Positions 27,324 to 37,101 of a stretch of 64,000 nt of DNA are shown here, one piece after another (within the stretch, counting starts at the first letter, position 1; each line of letters begins with the position of its first letter). Source of the DNA: Gammaproteobacteria bacterium. Its GTDB lineage: Bacteria > Pseudomonadota > Gammaproteobacteria > GCA-002705445 > GCA-002716945. The notes beneath the pieces are model-generated. The model saw only the letters and a program-made list of their open reading frames with translations, did no database searches and had not been told where the DNA came from. Made by a program: the position numbers and the translations under genes. Location: assembly GCA_018667355.1 (NCBI GenBank), contig JABIVC010000007.1:62001-126000 (forward strand), in the 5' to 3' direction.

Positions 27324-27953
27324 TTAGTCCAATTTTAATTTGTTAAATAATTTATCTATCTGTTCTCTATTAACCTTATATGATGTTTTATTAGCAATTA
27401 GTACAGATGAAATTTTTTCAATAGTTTCTATCTCAGCAAGACCATTTTGTTTTAGTGTTTGTCCTGATTCAACAAGATCGACTATTACATCTGACATACC
27501 AAGCACTGAAGCTAGCTCTATTGAACCATAAAGTTTTAGTATAGAACATGGTAATCCCTTGCTCTGAAAATATTTTTTTGTTATTGCAGGATATTTTGTC
27601 GCAACTTTCATATTATTTATCAGCTTTGTACCTCTTTTACCAGCTACAACTAATTTACAAGAAGCAATATTTAGGTTTTTGATTCTTAAATGATTACTAA
27701 GGTCAGTCTCTAACAAAGTATCTTTCCCAACAATCCCAAAATCAACTTTGCCAGATTCAATATAAATAGGTACGTCACTTGCTCTCACAATTATGATATC
27801 CAAGCCTGTGTAATTAGTTTCAAAAATAAGTTTTCTAGATTTAAATGGTGACTCTATACACTCTATTCCTGAAGTCTTTAAGATTTTTAAAGCTTCCTCT
27901 AGAATCCTTCCTTTTGATATCGCTAGCAATAGTTTCTTCATTTTAATATCCAC
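27324..27953 (-). CDS. hisG: ATP phosphoribosyltransferase, short-form HisG
   Basis: LLAISKGRILEEALKILK, VDFGIVGKDTLLE, IVDLVESGQTLKQNGL; about 205 aa, without the long-form C-terminal domain. Confidence 0.95.
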   Translation of the reverse strand: MDIKMKKLLLAISKGRILEEALKILKTSGIECIESPFKSRKLIFETNYTGLDIIIVRASDVPIYIESGKVDFGIVGKDTLLETDLSNHLRIKNLNIASCKLVVAGKRGTKLINNMKVATKYPAITKKYFQSKGLPCSILKLYGSIELASVLGMSDVIVDLVESGQTLKQNGLAEIETIEKISSVLIANKTSYKVNREQIDKLFNKLKLD

Positions 27954-27959
27954 TTATCC

Positions 27960-29222
27960 CTAAACTGGGACCCTACTAATATTTGCTCCAAGCTGCTGTA
28001 ATTTCTCTTCAATACAATCATATCCTCTGTCAATATGATAAATTCTCTCAATCTCTGTTATTCCAGTAGCTACTAATCCAGCTAAAATTAAACTTGCAGA
28101 AGCCCTGAGGTCAGTAGCCATCACTGATGCACCAATAAGTTTCTCACTGCCAGATATCTTTGCACAATTATTCTCTACCCTTATATCTGCTCCCATTCTA
28201 GTCATTTCCTGCACATGCATAAAGCGATTTTCAAAAATATTTTCCTTAATAATACTCTTACCCTTTGCAACAGTGTTCAATGCTGTCAATTGAGCTTGCA
28301 TATCCGTAGGAAAAAGCGGATATGCTCCTGTCTCGATATCAACGGCTAGCGGCCTCTTCCCTTTCATATCTAAAGTAATAGAGGTGTCAGTTAAAGTAAT
28401 ATCAGCTCCAGAAAGCTTAAGTTTTTCAATAATTGTGCTCACATGAGAAGAAATAGTATTTTTTACAGTTACACATCCTCCCGTTATGGCTGCTGCAACC
28501 AAAAATGTCCCTGTTTCAATTCTATCTGGTAAAGCTGAATAAGATACTCCTCTTAATTTTTCCACTCCTGTAACTTCTATTATATCTGTGCCATGACCAG
28601 TAATTGATGCCCCCATTTTATTAAGAAAATTTGCGAGATCAACAACCTCAGGCTCTCTTGCGGCATTCGATATAATTGTTTTACCTTCCGCGAGAGTAGA
28701 TGCCATTAATATATTTTCTGTACCAGTTACAGTTGTTTTTGAAAACCTTATTTCTGCACCAATAAGTTTTTTACATGACGCTGTGATATAACCATTATCT
28801 ATGCCAATTGATGCTCCCATTTGAGTTAAAGCATCAAGATGCATCTCAACCGGCCTAGTTCCTATTGCGCAACCACCCGGCAATGAAACCTTGGCTGAGC
28901 CAAATCTTGACAATAACGGTCCTAGAACCAAGATTGATGATCTCATGGTTTTCACCAAGTCATATGGTGCATAATAGTTTTTGATTGTAGAAGGATCTAA
29001 TTGAATATTCATGTTGTCATCCAATGTAACGCTAACACCCATTTGACGTAACAATCTTACAGTAGTGGTGACATCATGAAGATGAGGTATATTTTTCAGT
29101 ATTACATGCTTATCACTAGCCATAACAGAAGCGCATAGCATTGGTAATACAGCATTTTTTGCTCCAGAAACAGATACTTCACCGTTCAATGGTACTCCGC
29201 CTCTTATAATTAATTTATCCAT
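27960..29222 (-). CDS. murA: UDP-N-acetylglucosamine 1-carboxyvinyltransferase
   Basis: [62 protein letters not shown]. Confidence 0.98.
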
Positions 29223-29281: not shown

Positions 29282-31747
29282 ATGATTAAAAATATTTCAC
29301 ACTTATATTTACATTTGATTCTCAAAAATCCTAAAAGAGTGCTTGTTGTTTTGCTTATTATACTCTTAGGGATGAGTTCATATGCTTCAAATTTTAAACT
29401 TGATGCCTCTGCAGACTCATTAATCCTGGAAAATGATAATGACCTTCTAACATATAGAGAGAGTATTGAAAGATACTCGACCAAAGAATTTATTGTCATG
29501 ACCTATACTCCATTAGAAGGGGAAATATTCGATAAAAATAATCTTTCTCTAATTAAAGAGCTAAAAGAAGAATTATTGTCTATAAAAAATATATCGTCAG
29601 TTGTATCAATAATTGATATTCCTTTAGTAAAAAGCTCTGAAATACCATTAGAGGAAATGATAAATAATGTACCAACTATACTTTCAAGTGATGTTGATAT
29701 AGTAAAAGCTGAAAATGAGATACTCAGTAGCCCTATATATAAGAATCTTATAATTAGTAGTGATGGAACAACAACTGCAATACAAATTAATCTAAACAAT
29801 AATAAAGAGCTCTTAGAACTAAATAATCAAAAAAGAATACTGACTAAGAAAAAAATAGATAATAATATTACTCTTGAAGAAAGTATTTTCCTCGAAGAAG
29901 TGTTAGAAAAATATCTAAAGGCAAAAGAGTCACATGATAAGGAAACGCATAATTTACTTAAATCAGTAAGACTAATCCAAAGTCAATTTTCTGAAAAAAA
30001 CAATGTTGAATTAAGAATTGGTGGGATACCCATGATTGCTGATGATATGATCACATATGTTAAAAATGATTTAATCAATTTTGGACTAGGTGTATTTGTC
30101 TTCATATTAATAACTTTAATAATTATTTTTAGAGAACTTAAATGGGTGGCTTTACCAATATTAAGCTGCACTTATGCAGTATTATTCATGATTGGTTTTT
30201 TAGGCTTATTAAATTGGCAGGTAACTGTAATCTCCTCTAATTTTATTTCCCTTATGTTAATTTTAACCTTATCAATGAATATTCATCTAATCGTTAGATA
30301 TAGACAGTTATCTGCATCTAGCTCAACTCAATATGATGCAATTAGTATGACAACTCAACAAATGGTCTGGCCATGCTTGTATACAGCACTTACTACAATC
30401 GTAGCATTTGCTTCTTTGATATTTAGTGATATAAAGCCAGTAATTGATTTTGGTTATATGATGACGTTTGGATTGATAGTTACTTTTCTAACATCATTTA
30501 TTCTTTTGCCATGTATACTATCATTATTGAAAAAAGAAGAAAGTAATGTCAAAGCAGAGAACTCTTTTATATTCACAAAAATTCTTGCTGATCTAACAAT
30601 TAACAAAGGAAAATATATTATTGCGGTCACCGTTATAATTTTATTTTCAACAATTTATGGAATCTCACAACTACGTGTCGAAAATAGTTTTATTAATTAT
30701 TTTAAATCTGATACAGAAATTTATAAAGGGATGAAGCAAATAGATGAAAAGTTGGGTGGAACAACACCATTGGATATAATTATAAAATTTGATAATCCAG
30801 AACAAATTTTAGATGATGATGAGTTTGGAGATGGTTTATTAGAAGAAGATGATGGAGGTTTAGAGGCTCAATGGTTTACCACTAAAAAAATAGAAAAAAT
30901 TAAAAAGGTTCATGATTACCTAGATTCACTTCCAGAAATCGGAAAAGTACTGTCCTTTGCATCAACAATTAGAGTTGCTGAAGAATTAAATAATGGCGAA
31001 GTATTAAATAGTATGGAAATGGCTCTACTCTATAAAAGAGTGCCGGAAGAAGTCAAAAGTATGGCGATAAACCCATATATTTCAATTGAAAAAAATGAAG
31101 CTAGAATTAGTGCAAGAATACTTGATTCAAAAGAAGATTTAAGAAGAAATGACTTAATCAACAAGATAGAATATGATATTGAAAACAAACTAGGGTTAAA
31201 AAAAGAATCATATTTCCTAACAGGTGTATTAATACTTTATAACAATATGTTGCAAAGTTTATTTAACTCTCAAATATTATCTCTAGGTTTTGTCATGTCA
31301 GGGATTTTCTTTATGTTCTTAGTTTTATTCAAGTCTATAATATTATCTGTCATAGGTATAATACCAAACTTACTGGCAGCAACTTTTGTTTTAGGCTTGA
31401 TGGGATTAATAAATCTTCCTTTAGATATGATGACTATAACTATAGCAGCCATAGCAATTGGTATTGCTGTGGATAATAGCATACATTATATTTATAGATT
31501 TAGAGAGGAGTATAAATCTGCTAATGATTATAAGTCATCGCTATATAATGCTCATAATAGTATTGGCAGGGCAATTTTCTTCACAAGCATTACAATTATA
31601 TTTGGATTCTCAATTCTTGTTATGTCTAACTTTATTCCAACAATAATTTTTGGCCTATTAACAGGGCTGGCCATGTTTATAGCTTTATTAGCTGTATTGA
31701 CACTTCTACCTAAACTGCTTATTCATTTCAAACCATTTAAAGGATAA
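29282..31747 (+). CDS. MMPL/RND-superfamily transporter (predicted lipid exporter)
   Basis: 821 aa with two TM bundles and duplicated periplasmic domains; TITIAAIAIGIAVDNSIHYIYRFREE, GRAIFFTSITIIFGFSILVMSNF. Confidence 0.88.
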   Translation: MIKNISHLYLHLILKNPKRVLVVLLIILLGMSSYASNFKLDASADSLILENDNDLLTYRESIERYSTKEFIVMTYTPLEGEIFDKNNLSLIKELKEELLSIKNISSVVSIIDIPLVKSSEIPLEEMINNVPTILSSDVDIVKAENEILSSPIYKNLIISSDGTTTAIQINLNNNKELLELNNQKRILTKKKIDNNITLEESIFLEEVLEKYLKAKESHDKETHNLLKSVRLIQSQFSEKNNVELRIGGIPMIADDMITYVKNDLINFGLGVFVFILITLIIIFRELKWVALPILSCTYAVLFMIGFLGLLNWQVTVISSNFISLMLILTLSMNIHLIVRYRQLSASSSTQYDAISMTTQQMVWPCLYTALTTIVAFASLIFSDIKPVIDFGYMMTFGLIVTFLTSFILLPCILSLLKKEESNVKAENSFIFTKILADLTINKGKYIIAVTVIILFSTIYGISQLRVENSFINYFKSDTEIYKGMKQIDEKLGGTTPLDIIIKFDNPEQILDDDEFGDGLLEEDDGGLEAQWFTTKKIEKIKKVHDYLDSLPEIGKVLSFASTIRVAEELNNGEVLNSMEMALLYKRVPEEVKSMAINPYISIEKNEARISARILDSKEDLRRNDLINKIEYDIENKLGLKKESYFLTGVLILYNNMLQSLFNSQILSLGFVMSGIFFMFLVLFKSIILSVIGIIPNLLAATFVLGLMGLINLPLDMMTITIAAIAIGIAVDNSIHYIYRFREEYKSANDYKSSLYNAHNSIGRAIFFTSITIIFGFSILVMSNFIPTIIFGLLTGLAMFIALLAVLTLLPKLLIHFKPFKG

Positions 31748-31759
31748 ATAATAATAGTT

Positions 31760-32350
31760 TTATTTTTTTTCTTCCAGGACATTTATTAAAGAAACAATGC
31801 CTTGTTGTTCAATATGATTTCTGAAATCAGCACGGTAGTTTTTAAGAAGACTAATACCATCTATATTAATATCATATACTTTCCACTGATCATCTTTGTT
31901 TAGTTTAAGACTATAATTTACTGAAATTTCACCCTCTGATAATAAATATTTCGACTGAACTCTGGCTACATCAGGTCTTTTACCTTTAGCATACGGTAAG
32001 AAGAAAATCTTCTCTCCGTCGAAAGCTGTAAGAGATTTCATATAGGTCCTAACCATTAATCCTCTGAAAGCTAGAACAAACCTGTCTCTCTGATGTTTAT
32101 TCAATGAGAGCCAGTTTTTCTTACCTAAGACTATTTTTGACATTAATAATATATCAAGCTTTGGGATAATTAACCCATCAACCTTTGATTGTAAAAAGCT
32201 TTGATCATTCTCTAGCATGTCCTTATTTTCTGAAATAAATTGAGACACTTCCCTGACGCTATCTTTTAAAAACACATCCGGAGCGCTCGCAGCATGGATT
32301 GCCGTGGAAAAAAATAGAAAAAAAGTTATTATGTATTTAATTATTTTCAT
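31760..32350 (-). CDS. mlaC: MlaC/Ttg2D-family phospholipid-binding periplasmic protein; start probably MKIIKYIITF
   Basis: Signal peptide; LLMSKIVLGKKNWLSLNKHQRDRFVLAFRGLMVRTYMKSL, WKVYDINIDGISLLKNYRADFRNHIEQQGI. Confidence 0.88.
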   Translation of the reverse strand: MKIIKYIITFFLFFSTAIHAASAPDVFLKDSVREVSQFISENKDMLENDQSFLQSKVDGLIIPKLDILLMSKIVLGKKNWLSLNKHQRDRFVLAFRGLMVRTYMKSLTAFDGEKIFFLPYAKGKRPDVARVQSKYLLSEGEISVNYSLKLNKDDQWKVYDINIDGISLLKNYRADFRNHIEQQGIVSLINVLEEKK

Positions 32351-32407
32351 AGTTATATGTATACTATATATTATATTAAGTTTCACTATGGATACAGAAT
32401 ATATACC

Positions 32408-33151
32408 ATGAATTACAAATTTTTCCCCATTGACAAATTTAGAATTACATTGCCATTAGCCATGGTTATACTACTTATCCTCTCGGGTTGCAGCACTACG
32501 GGTGCGGCTAAAAATGATCCTTTCGAACCTATGAATAGAGCTATATTTAGCTTCAATGAGGTTGTAGATGATAATATTCTTAAGCCTGTCGCAAAAACAT
32601 ATAAATATATAACGCCAGATCCTATAGAAACAGGAGTATCTAATGTTTTCAGTAATATTGGAGAAGTTAGCACGATAGCAAATGATGTGCTTCAGTTAAA
32701 ATTTAATCAGGCTGGTCATGATATCTTAAGGTTTTCAATAAATACGACTCTCGGTGTTTTGGGGATATTTGATGTAGCTACATCCATGGGTTTAACAAAA
32801 AATAAAGAAGATTTTGGACAAACATTAGGATACTGGGGTATGCCGCAAGGCCCATATTTAGTTCTTCCTTTTTTAGGAGCAAGTAGTTTTAGAGATGCTC
32901 CTGGTCTTTATGCTGATATGCAAATATCTCCGGTGGAACAACTTCATAATAAAGAAGAGCTAGCAGCAAATACACTAAATATAGTTAATCTCAGAGCGAG
33001 ATTATTAAGAGCTTCAAAAATTCTAGATACAGCTGCTAAAGATAAATATATATTCATCAGGGAATCATACTTGCAAAAAAGAGAATTACTGGTTAATGAT
33101 GGTGAAAATGCAGAAACTTTTGAGATTGATGTTGACGGGGTTGACTACTAA
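32408..33151 (+). CDS. mlaA: MlaA/VacJ-family outer-membrane lipoprotein; start probably MNYKFFPIDK
   Basis: Lipobox LILSGCS; DPFEPMNRAIFSFNEVVDDNILKPVAKTYKYITP, EDFGQTLGYWGMPQGPYLVLPFLGASSFRDAPG. Confidence 0.93.
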   Translation: MNYKFFPIDKFRITLPLAMVILLILSGCSTTGAAKNDPFEPMNRAIFSFNEVVDDNILKPVAKTYKYITPDPIETGVSNVFSNIGEVSTIANDVLQLKFNQAGHDILRFSINTTLGVLGIFDVATSMGLTKNKEDFGQTLGYWGMPQGPYLVLPFLGASSFRDAPGLYADMQISPVEQLHNKEELAANTLNIVNLRARLLRASKILDTAAKDKYIFIRESYLQKRELLVNDGENAETFEIDVDGVDY

Positions 33152-33171: not shown

Positions 33172-34137
33172 ATGTCTAGCTTAGTTTATCTTTACTTAAT
33201 TATTGGCTTGGTGCTAATTAGCTATGGTGCGAATGTACTAGTTTCCTCCACTGAGGATATATCTAAAAAATTTAATATATCAAAATTTATTTCAAGCTTT
33301 ATCTTTATTGGGCTTGCAACATCATCTCCAGAAATATTTATCTCTATAATTTCTAGTTTAGAAGGGAAAGGCAATATAGCAATTGGGAATGCTCTTGGGT
33401 CAAATATAGCTAATATAGCTCTAGTATTTGCATTAACTATCCTATTGTTTGGATCCAATATTACTGAAAAAAACAAAATACTATCTAAAGAGATTAAAGG
33501 TTTTATGATTATTGCACTATTACTATCCATATTAGTTTATCCTGTTCTAATAGATGGTACTGTTTCAAAAAATGAGTCAGCAAGTCTTCTGTTATTTTTT
33601 GTTATATCATTTTATTTTTATAATAAATATTTTTATTCAAATGGTGGCATGAAGATAAATCAAAAGCATATACATGGTGTACTTGTTTTCATATCCTTAA
33701 TTTTTGGTCTTTTTTTACTCTTGATTGGAACAAATATATTTCTAGATAACAGTATAACTATCGCAAAATCATTTGGTCTAACTGATTATGTGATTGGGTT
33801 GTCAATAACTGCAATTGGCACAAGTATACCTGAATTAGCATCAAGCATAGAATCAGCTAGAAAAAAGAATTTTGATTTTATTGTTGGCAATATTTTAGGG
33901 TCTAATATATTCAATATTGCTATCGTAATAAGCGTTGTTGGGATAATAGATAATCATCTGACTCAGGCTTTATCTATAATAGATGTAATGAGAGATATAC
34001 TTATGATCCTGATTACAACGGCAGTGTTTTATATTATAATCAAGAACTATAATCAATATATAACTAAAATGTTATGCTCGTTACTGCTACTTTCTTTCGT
34101 GCTTTACCAGTTTAACCTGTATGGAATTAATATATGA
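33172..34137 (+). CDS. yrbG: Calcium/sodium antiporter family protein (YrbG-like)
   Basis: Two alpha-repeats (GLATSSPEIFISIISSLEGKGNIAIGNALGSNIANIAL; AIGTSIPELASSIESARKKNFDFIVGNILGSNIFNIA); upstream of kdsD as in E. coli. Confidence 0.92.
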   Translation: MSSLVYLYLIIGLVLISYGANVLVSSTEDISKKFNISKFISSFIFIGLATSSPEIFISIISSLEGKGNIAIGNALGSNIANIALVFALTILLFGSNITEKNKILSKEIKGFMIIALLLSILVYPVLIDGTVSKNESASLLLFFVISFYFYNKYFYSNGGMKINQKHIHGVLVFISLIFGLFLLLIGTNIFLDNSITIAKSFGLTDYVIGLSITAIGTSIPELASSIESARKKNFDFIVGNILGSNIFNIAIVISVVGIIDNHLTQALSIIDVMRDILMILITTAVFYIIIKNYNQYITKMLCSLLLLSFVLYQFNLYGINI

Positions 34138-35102
34138 AAATGACAGATAAGATATCTATAGCCAAGAAAGTGATTCTTTCCGAAGCAACAGCACTCAAAA
34201 GTATAGCTAATAGATTAGATAAAAACTTTACCCTAGCTTGTGAAGCTATACTTAATTGTAGAGGGAAAGTCATAACTATTGGGCTTGGAAAATCGGGGCA
34301 TGTAGCCACTAAGTCTGCCGCAACATTATCGAGTACTGGTACTCCATCAGTGTTTCTGCATGCAGCAGAAGCTTTGCATGGAGATGTTGGCCTAATTGGA
34401 AAGCTAGACTTAGTAGTCTGTTATTCTAACTCTGGTGAAACAAAAGAGTTGTTACTTCTATTACCTTTAATAAAAATTTTGAAAGTCACATTAATTACCA
34501 TTACGGGTAATAAGAAATCTACATTAGCAAAATCATCGGATATAGTTTTAGATTCTAGTGTTAAATCTGAAGCTTGTCCTCTAAATTTAACTCCTACATC
34601 AAGTGTAATAAGTGCTATTGGTTTATCTGACGCATTAGCAATAACACTTCTTAAAAGCAGAGGTTTTACATCCAAAGATTTTGCAAAATCCCATCCTCAG
34701 GGGGAATTAGGGAAACGACTTTTGAAGAAAACAGAAGATATCATGATAACGAAGGGGCTTCCTTTTACTTATTCAGATATGAAACTAGTCAAGGCTATAG
34801 ATATTATTACAAAGTATAATTATGGAATCATCATATCCTTAACTAGAGAGAAAAGATTATTGGGTATATTTACAGATGGAGATTTAAGACGGACTTTAAA
34901 AAGAGATAATGATATATCCACTCTTCAACTATATAAAGTAATGAGAAAAAAACCTTTTATAGTATCTAGAAACATAATGGCAGCTGAAGCATTAAATATT
35001 ATGGAACAAAATCAAATCACATGTTTACTTGTTGCTAATGATGACAAAACAGTTGCAGGTTTATTAACTCTTAATCACCTACTTAAGTCGGGCATAGAAT
35101 AA
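34134..35102 (+). CDS. kdsD: Arabinose-5-phosphate isomerase KdsD
   Basis: SIS domain plus CBS pair; ITIGLGKSGHVATKSAATLSSTGTPSVFLHAAEALHGDVGLI. Confidence 0.95.
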   Translation: MKMTDKISIAKKVILSEATALKSIANRLDKNFTLACEAILNCRGKVITIGLGKSGHVATKSAATLSSTGTPSVFLHAAEALHGDVGLIGKLDLVVCYSNSGETKELLLLLPLIKILKVTLITITGNKKSTLAKSSDIVLDSSVKSEACPLNLTPTSSVISAIGLSDALAITLLKSRGFTSKDFAKSHPQGELGKRLLKKTEDIMITKGLPFTYSDMKLVKAIDIITKYNYGIIISLTREKRLLGIFTDGDLRRTLKRDNDISTLQLYKVMRKKPFIVSRNIMAAEALNIMEQNQITCLLVANDDKTVAGLLTLNHLLKSGIE

Positions 35103-35647
35103 TGGATTATAAAGAATATTCAGACTATATGCTTTCTATTGATCAATCAGTTATTGATAAAGCTAAAAATATTAAATTATTGATTTTAGACGTAGACGGA
35201 GTAATGACTGATGGTGGAATAATTCTCTCGGATACTAATTCTGAGTCAAAGAAATTTTTTGCACAAGATGGTCATGGCGTCATGATTATCAGAGAATTGG
35301 GTATTGAGGTTGCAATAATCAGTGGTCGCTACTCAAAGGCTGTAGAACATAGAGGAAAAGAACTTGGTTTTAAAACTATAATACAAAACTCAAGGAATAA
35401 ATTAGAGGACTATGAGAAAAACTTTTCAGAGAAATATAATCTAAAAGATGTTTGTTTTGTGGGTGATGATATCGTTGATATTAATTTATTGAAGAGTGTT
35501 GGTTTAGCCATAACAGTTCCAAATGCAAACTATAATAAGTTATTAGAATATACAGATTGGATGACTCCTAGAAAAGGAGGTTGTGGGGCTGTAAGAGATG
35601 TATGTGATTTAATATGCTTAGCAAAAAATAATAATGAAATTAGCTAA
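35102..35647 (+). CDS. kdsC: 3-deoxy-D-manno-octulosonate 8-phosphate phosphatase KdsC
   Basis: KLLILDVDGVMTDGGI, CFVGDDIVDINLLKSVGLAITVPNA. Confidence 0.95.
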   Translation: MDYKEYSDYMLSIDQSVIDKAKNIKLLILDVDGVMTDGGIILSDTNSESKKFFAQDGHGVMIIRELGIEVAIISGRYSKAVEHRGKELGFKTIIQNSRNKLEDYEKNFSEKYNLKDVCFVGDDIVDINLLKSVGLAITVPNANYNKLLEYTDWMTPRKGGCGAVRDVCDLICLAKNNNEIS

Positions 35648-36374
35648 CAATCTAATTAAGAAATTCTCTAGAAAAAATGTTATTACCCTTAGCATATTAT
35701 TAATACTAATAATTTGGATTAATCACTTGTTATCTAGCGCTCTAAATTATAATAATTTAGATTTAGACGAGAATGTCTCTAATCATTTTATAAATAAATT
35801 TAAAATGGTGGAAACTAATATTCATGGGAATACAGCATGGACTCTTCTTGGTGATAGATTAGAAAAGTTTCCGAATAGCCTTAGATCGGAAGTGATGAAT
35901 CCCGTAATGGAGATTAATTCTATAGGAGATGAAAAGTGGATTATAAAAGCTAAGCATGCCCTTGACCCTGACTCTCTTTTCAAGTCTATATACCTAACTG
36001 ATGATGTAGAATTCAATAAGTATAGCGAGAATAAAACGAATGAAGTCAATATAATAACAACAGAAGCAGTAATATATCCAGATACTGAAATAATTGAAAC
36101 AACTAAGTTTGCAGTAATTACAACACCGGATTCAAAAACAAGCGGAGATGGAGTCATAGCTGATATGAAAAATGGTCAAATAAAGATATTATCAAACGCT
36201 AAACGATTGTCTTATACAGGCGAACAATCTCAGCAGCTAGAAGGTGATAGGATGTTATATGATTTAACTAAAAAAACTTGGATTTTACTTAAAAAAGAAA
36301 ATCAAGATGATAAAGTAAAGATAAAGGAAAGAGTTAAAACAATTTTAAAAACAAAAAAAAGCGAAGTGAAATAA
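35634..36374 (+). CDS. lptC: LPS export system protein LptC, with C-terminal extension
   Basis: Between kdsC and lptB; single N-terminal TM and LptC-like beta region; extra C-terminal segment EQSQQLEGDRMLYDLTKKTWILLKKENQDDKVKIKERVKTILK. Confidence 0.8.
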   Translation: MKLANNLIKKFSRKNVITLSILLILIIWINHLLSSALNYNNLDLDENVSNHFINKFKMVETNIHGNTAWTLLGDRLEKFPNSLRSEVMNPVMEINSIGDEKWIIKAKHALDPDSLFKSIYLTDDVEFNKYSENKTNEVNIITTEAVIYPDTEIIETTKFAVITTPDSKTSGDGVIADMKNGQIKILSNAKRLSYTGEQSQQLEGDRMLYDLTKKTWILLKKENQDDKVKIKERVKTILKTKKSEVK

Positions 36375-36375
36375 T

Positions 36376-37101
36376 ATGGCTGGACTAGATTGTATAAACC
36401 TCAATAAAAATTATGATGGGAAGACTGTAGTTGATAATATTAGCATTAGCTTGCAAGAGAATAATGTAATAGGACTCCTAGGCCCTAATGGTGCTGGTAA
36501 AACAACAACATTTTATATGCTGGTTGGTCTAATAAAATGTAATGGTGGTGTTATAAAAATAAATGGTAAAGATATAACTTCTTTGCCAATGCATATGAGA
36601 TCTGACTTGGGTATTAGTTATCTACCCCAAGAAGCATCAATATTCAGAAATTTATCTGTAAAAGATAATATATTGGCAATTTTGGAAACAAGAAAAGAGC
36701 TTACTTCTAATGAACTTAATGATAAATTTGAATCGTTAGTCAATACATTACAAATAGAGCATATTTTATCAAATAAAGGAGCAAGTCTATCAGGCGGAGA
36801 AAGAAGAAGAGTTGAGATTGCAAGAGCATTAGCAACAGAACCAAAATTTTTACTATTGGATGAACCATTTGCTGGTATAGATCCTCTTTCAGTCATAGAA
36901 ATTCAGAAAATTATTAAGCAATTAGTAGAGGCAAACATAGGAGTCCTTATAACTGATCATAATGTCAGAGAGACCTTAAAAGTATGTGATCAAGCATATA
37001 TTATCAGTGATGGAAAAGTTATTGCTCACGGAAAACCCTCTAAAATCATAAAAGATAAGATTGTGCAAGATGTGTATCTTGGTGATAATTTTACATTATG
37101 A
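36376..37101 (+). CDS. lptB: LPS export ABC transporter ATP-binding protein LptB
   Basis: LGPNGAGKTTTFYMLVGLI, YLPQEASIFRNLSV, SLSGGERRRVEIARALA, LLLDEPFAGIDPLSV. Confidence 0.97.
   Translation: MAGLDCINLNKNYDGKTVVDNISISLQENNVIGLLGPNGAGKTTTFYMLVGLIKCNGGVIKINGKDITSLPMHMRSDLGISYLPQEASIFRNLSVKDNILAILETRKELTSNELNDKFESLVNTLQIEHILSNKGASLSGGERRRVEIARALATEPKFLLLDEPFAGIDPLSVIEIQKIIKQLVEANIGVLITDHNVRETLKVCDQAYIISDGKVIAHGKPSKIIKDKIVQDVYLGDNFTL

Follow-up and report, generated by a model that had tools for sequence, protein, structure and literature searches.

The window analyzed here is a 64,000-nucleotide stretch of gammaproteobacterial DNA, in which the genes for an MMPL/RND transporter, a MlaC homologue, and a MlaA homologue are flanked by murA-hisG on one side and by yrbG-kdsD-kdsC-lptC-lptB on the other, as determined from the window genes and Pfam profiles. 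The features of the locus are as follows.

27324..27953, minus strand: hisG, flanking gene
27960..29222, minus strand: murA, flank of the canonical mla slot (translation and conserved neighbour)
29282..31747, plus strand: MMPL/RND inner-membrane transporter, 821 aa (PF03176, E = 1e-32, 113.8 vs 20.5 bits)
31760..32350, minus strand: MlaC homologue with a signal peptide, periplasmic phospholipid shuttle (PF05494, E = 2.7e-39)
32351..32407, no strand: divergent mlaC-mlaA intergenic region, 57 bp (from the sequence)
32408..33151, plus strand: MlaA homologue, outer-membrane lipoprotein with lipobox LSGC (PF04333, E = 5.2e-77)
33172..34137, plus strand: yrbG, Na/Ca antiporter, flank of the canonical mla slot (PF01699)
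34134..35102, plus strand: kdsD, flanking gene
35102..35647, plus strand: kdsC, flanking gene
35634..36374, plus strand: lptC, with lptA not next to it (PF06835)
36376..37101, plus strand: lptB ABC ATPase, the LPS-export ATPase and not MlaF (PF00005 and position behind lptC)

These coordinates and Pfam matches confirmed the first-pass annotation, which had placed an 821-aa MMPL/RND protein together with MlaC and MlaA between murA and yrbG-kdsD-kdsC-lptC. The MlaC gene runs on the minus strand from the ATG at 32350, where the signal peptide starts, to a stop at 31760, and its ORF is open to 32386. For MlaA, a start at 32408 is likelier than one at 32357. The window MlaC also matched solved MlaC/Ttg2D structures. 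Because mlaC converges with the MMPL gene across 12 bp and is transcribed away from mlaA across 57 bp, the trio forms a cluster rather than one operon, and the 57-bp gap is likely the site of both putative promoters. Farther along the locus, lptC abuts lptB (36374-36376) with lptA missing between them, and the same arrangement was observed in six of six relatives (L050, L051, L052, L054, L056, and L057); a three-sequence model, which is a weak one, detected no LptA in the window's genome.

Compared with the known Mla pathway (MlaA-OmpC/F, MlaC, and MlaFEDB), the window has homologues of MlaA and MlaC, and the trio lies in the same slot, between yrbG-kds-lpt and the murA-his genes, but the window's genome has neither MlaD/MCE nor MlaE and carries an RND protein at the site. 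The genome is 1.03 Mb in size, with a GC content of 31.5% and a completeness of 94%. Genome-wide profile searches with PF02470 (MlaD/MCE) and PF02405 (MlaE) returned no match in it, extending to the whole genome the earlier claim that the window contains no MlaD or MlaE. A local scan, which covered the assembly except for 2 kb and one 2772-bp contig (C2) reading as N, also found no MCE in nearly all of the 1.03 Mb, and it showed MlaC, MlaA, and the RND/MMPL of the family in question to be present in a single copy each. Neither mlaF nor mlaB was found in the slot, a result for this locus only; MlaF is not separable from other ABC ATPases.

The same gene content was observed across the window's family. 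MCE was missing in all 25 sampled genomes, including one that is 99% and one that is 100% complete. The first-pass annotation had made its reading depend on conservation of the gene grouping, and MMPL and MlaC were adjacent in 22 of these 25 genomes, with MlaA beside them, indicating that the grouping is not due to chance. The three other family genomes (69-87% complete) had neither MMPL nor MlaC, and two of them (G011 and G015) also had no MlaA.

The MMPL protein is a member of the RND/MMPL superfamily, with a PF03176 score above the cut-off and an RND fold. Its AlphaFold2 model (pLDDT 86.5, pTM 0.83) has two periplasmic domains and matched MmpL3/4/5, HpnN, and NPC1 in Foldseek, and the nearest solved protein by sequence was HpnN. 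In the membrane core, H335, D731, and H735 are invariant in 85 homologues and are candidates for the charged TM4/TM10 residues of a proton relay. The mycobacterial lipid and siderophore exporters MmpL3, MmpL4, and MmpL5 share the RND/MMPL fold with the window protein (TM-score (query) of about 0.65-0.70), but the identity is 11-14%, the envelope is different, and they have no MlaC/MlaA partners.

We consider it probable, with some reserve, that the MMPL protein is an RND lipid transporter that draws on the proton-motive force and fills the role of the ATP-driven MlaFEDB, namely that of the partner of MlaC in the inner membrane. According to this proposal, MlaA would take misplaced phospholipid out of the outer membrane, MlaC would ferry this presumed substrate across the periplasm, and the RND protein would receive it from MlaC by physical handover, replacing MlaD/MlaE, in a step powered by the proton-motive force rather than by ATP. 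The geometry of such a MlaC-to-RND transfer may be likened to that of NPC2 passing sterol to NPC1, in which a soluble carrier likewise gives lipid to a membrane protein of the RND fold; however, the NPC2-NPC1 pair is eukaryotic, and the analogy would be one of mechanism, not of carrier descent.

The window's genome also encodes an AcrB-type RND, LptD, and YhdP, the last two of which indicate an outer membrane of the LPS type. MlaA in Escherichia coli removes outer-leaflet phospholipid. Because MlaA is retained and YhdP, a candidate for anterograde transport, is present, a retrograde direction is modestly favored for the RND-MlaC-MlaA route. There is a smaller yet appreciable chance that transport is anterograde, with the RND protein extracting phospholipid from the inner membrane and loading MlaC for delivery toward the outer membrane, in the manner of lipid export by MmpL3 or HpnN. 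MmpL3 and HpnN, RND lipid transporters that have been characterised, are exporters and share the fold of the window protein, and a proton drive would suit extraction, whereas the retention of MlaA and the presence of YhdP as another anterograde candidate argue against this direction. In the same genome, a 910-aa ORF on contig C15 (C15:236211-238940; L245:16211-18940, minus strand) encodes BamE (aa 62-129), LptD_N, and LptD domains in this order and may represent a fusion of BamE with LptD.

The gene contexts of the transporter were compared in relatives by scanning GTDB species genomes for MMPL homologues, of which the best 80 of 580 were kept. The MMPL gene was followed by mlaC in at least 11 proteobacterial MAGs, mostly gammaproteobacterial, and the run continued to murA in 10 of these 11, indicating that MMPL occupies the mlaFED slot in ten MAGs. 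Within these MMPL-mlaC-murA runs, ibaG/BolA usually lay between mlaC and murA, and hisG-hisD lay behind. Of the 11 slot MlaCs, eight nested among those encoded by canonical mlaFEDC operons (98/95 support), and the remaining three formed a separate clade. Four of the ten genomes with an MMPL-mlaC-murA run were MCE-null; the other six held an MlaD-type MCE elsewhere, with a MlaC close by, and the notion that all such MAGs are without MCE was rejected. Two of these six MCE-positive slot genomes were examined, and both had an mlaFED module to which a convergent MlaC of its own belonged. Since each system has its own MlaC, MMPL and MlaFED have separate shuttles in these two dual-system genomes. In addition, three genomes (G456, G461, and G465) carry five MlaC genes each, which suggests that several parallel MlaC-dependent lipid routes may exist in them.

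In the SAR11 group, the MMPL orthologue occupied a stable position between dnaB (or alr) and cvpA-purF (L087, L113, L064, L073, L102, L118, and L165). All 13 MMPL-positive genomes of this group that were tested were without MCE, and MlaA was present in 12 and MlaC in 11 of them; in all 11 genomes with MlaC, mlaA and mlaC were side by side and apart from MMPL. Neither mlaC nor mlaA adjoined MMPL in SAR11, G026, G027, and G055. This separation, like the convergent orientation of mlaC and MMPL in the window's family, counts against the proposed partnership. In six genomes from three families, an MMPL of a sister clade, which shares about 31-35% identity with the window protein, formed an operon with mlaA in which the MMPL gene overlaps the end of mlaA (L049, L149, L151, L160, L167, and L168). 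The co-occurrence of RND, MlaC, and MlaA without MlaFED in relatives, which the first-pass annotation had proposed to look for, was thus seen in the window's family and in the SAR11 group, both MCE-null. The combination of an RND protein with MlaC/MlaA and without MCE is confirmed; it is conserved and occurs more widely than the window alone showed. As gene content rather than demonstrated function, a replacement of MlaFED in the window's family and in SAR11 is well supported.

The association between MMPL and MCE absence was further quantified at two scales. Within the class, sampled as one genome per family (33 families), MCE was missing in 5/6 MMPL-positive vs 1/27 MMPL-negative families (Fisher p = 1.5e-4). 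In a draw of 399 genomes from the phylum, MCE was missing in 2/21 MMPL-positive vs 9/378 MMPL-negative genomes, a difference that was not significant (p = 0.11). These results indicate that the association is strong in diverse, often streamlined gammaproteobacteria but weak in larger genomes. At the phylum scale, the idea that MMPL and MCE strictly exclude each other was rejected, as 19 of the 21 MMPL-positive genomes also hold MCE, many of these dual-system genomes being large. One genome that is 100% complete (G400) has an intact mlaA-mlaC pair with no MCE and no MMPL of the family at E<=1e-60; a local reading of 559 kb, about half of this genome, gave one distant RND match and no MMPL of the family, and G400 is likely a counterexample to the rule that MlaC without MCE is always accompanied by MMPL. 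G400 is one of nine MCE-null, MMPL-null genomes in the phylum draw; among the others, MlaC was matched weakly in G422, was decayed in G326, and was intact in G313, a genome that is 70% complete. The earlier proposal that an RND pump replaced the MCE-ABC machine as the partner of MlaC and MlaA was partly supported: it gained from the absence of MCE and MlaE, the conserved grouping, the MMPL-mlaC-murA order, and the mlaA-MMPL operons, but it did not hold as a general rule of exchange, given the dual-system genomes, the phylum-scale result, and G400/G422.

These exceptions also bear on a further explanation, which we consider rather unlikely, namely that the MMPL protein is an unrelated exporter of a drug, a fatty acid, or another envelope lipid, that its closeness to the mla genes reflects positional inheritance, and that MlaC-MlaA have another partner or are relics. 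Such an exporter would fit the frequent distance of MMPL from the mla genes, the joint occurrence of MMPL and MCE in large genomes, and the retention of mlaA-mlaC in G400, where no MMPL of the family was found. However, MMPL is linked to Mla genes in separate ways, through the mlaFED slot beside mlaC, the sister-clade operons in which it overlaps mlaA, and the trio in the window's family, and MlaC is intact in streamlined 1-Mb genomes in which no other inner-membrane partner was found.

HpnN has been tied to hopanoids through gene co-occurrence (PMC2698682), and the HpnN/HpnM system likewise pairs an RND transporter with a periplasmic protein of the MlaC family. The window pair was therefore also evaluated as a possible carrier of hopanoids or sterols resembling HpnN/HpnM or Bst, HpnN being the closest solved relative of the MMPL protein by sequence and HpnM also belonging to the MlaC family. 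The MMPL protein scored 133.7 bits against a cut-off of 751.85 bits and 102 against 1100 bits with the HpnN equivalog models, and the MlaC scored 65.6 bits against 160.1 bits for HpnM. BstA, a sterol transporter, is a distant RND relative of the window MMPL, but its equivalog model gave 26.4 bits against a cut-off of 1400 bits. No squalene-hopene cyclase was found in the window's genome or in 14 other family genomes scanned, nor in 33 of 36 genomes scanned, a result in favor of the first-pass annotation, which had named a linked hopanoid gene set as contrary evidence. With scores far under the equivalog cut-offs and the cyclase missing, the MMPL protein is not HpnN; the hopanoid identity was rejected, and a hopanoid or sterol carrier of any of these types is very improbable. 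The window pair is instead tied to MlaA and the mla slot, and it is a variant of the known RND-plus-MlaC arrangement, new in its tie to the Mla route instead of hopanoids. It is still more improbable that MlaFED is present and escaped detection because of assembly gaps, masking, or divergence. Although the window's genome is 94% complete and one 2.8-kb contig is all N, relatives that are 99-100% complete and the single-contig G412 genome are also MCE-null, and MlaE is missing too.

Some LPS-bearing phyla are without Mla, and an alternative retrograde transporter or degradation has been suggested for them (PMC10665443). In the open-access literature, we found no paper pairing MlaA/VacJ with MMPL, or MlaC with MMPL and RND. 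Both SAR11 and another streamlined lineage have retained MlaA and MlaC but are without MCE, and their genomes encode members of a specific RND clade, which makes this clade a definite candidate for the inner-membrane partner that is missing. Naming it renders the question of the MlaC partner testable. SAR11 bacteria are among the most abundant cells in the ocean. In small-genome ocean bacteria, including SAR11 relatives, a single RND-type lipid pump probably took over the job of the lost MCE system. More tentatively, and with somewhat less than even confidence, a proton-motive force-driven, MCE-independent Mla route could be the principal system for lipid asymmetry in SAR11 and in streamlined marine gammaproteobacteria; such a route would have arisen when an RND gene was inserted into the mla operon and was passed from one class to another.

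The root of the MMPL tree is unsure, as this is a quick tree with long branches next to the mlaA-linked clade. In this tree, the mlaC-slot MMPLs formed one clade (99%), and the MMPLs of the window's family were sister to those of SAR11 (99% SH-aLRT). Because the window's family is gammaproteobacterial and SAR11 is alphaproteobacterial, this sisterhood points to a possible transfer of MMPL between classes. The MlaA sequences also differed at their N-termini. The lipobox cysteine is missing in family relatives (L007, L010, L012-L015, L017-L019, L021, and L022) and in SAR11 loci L184-L186, and a comparison of N-termini showed that the lipobox-less MlaAs appear to have a type I signal peptide and that the window's genus retains the lipobox.
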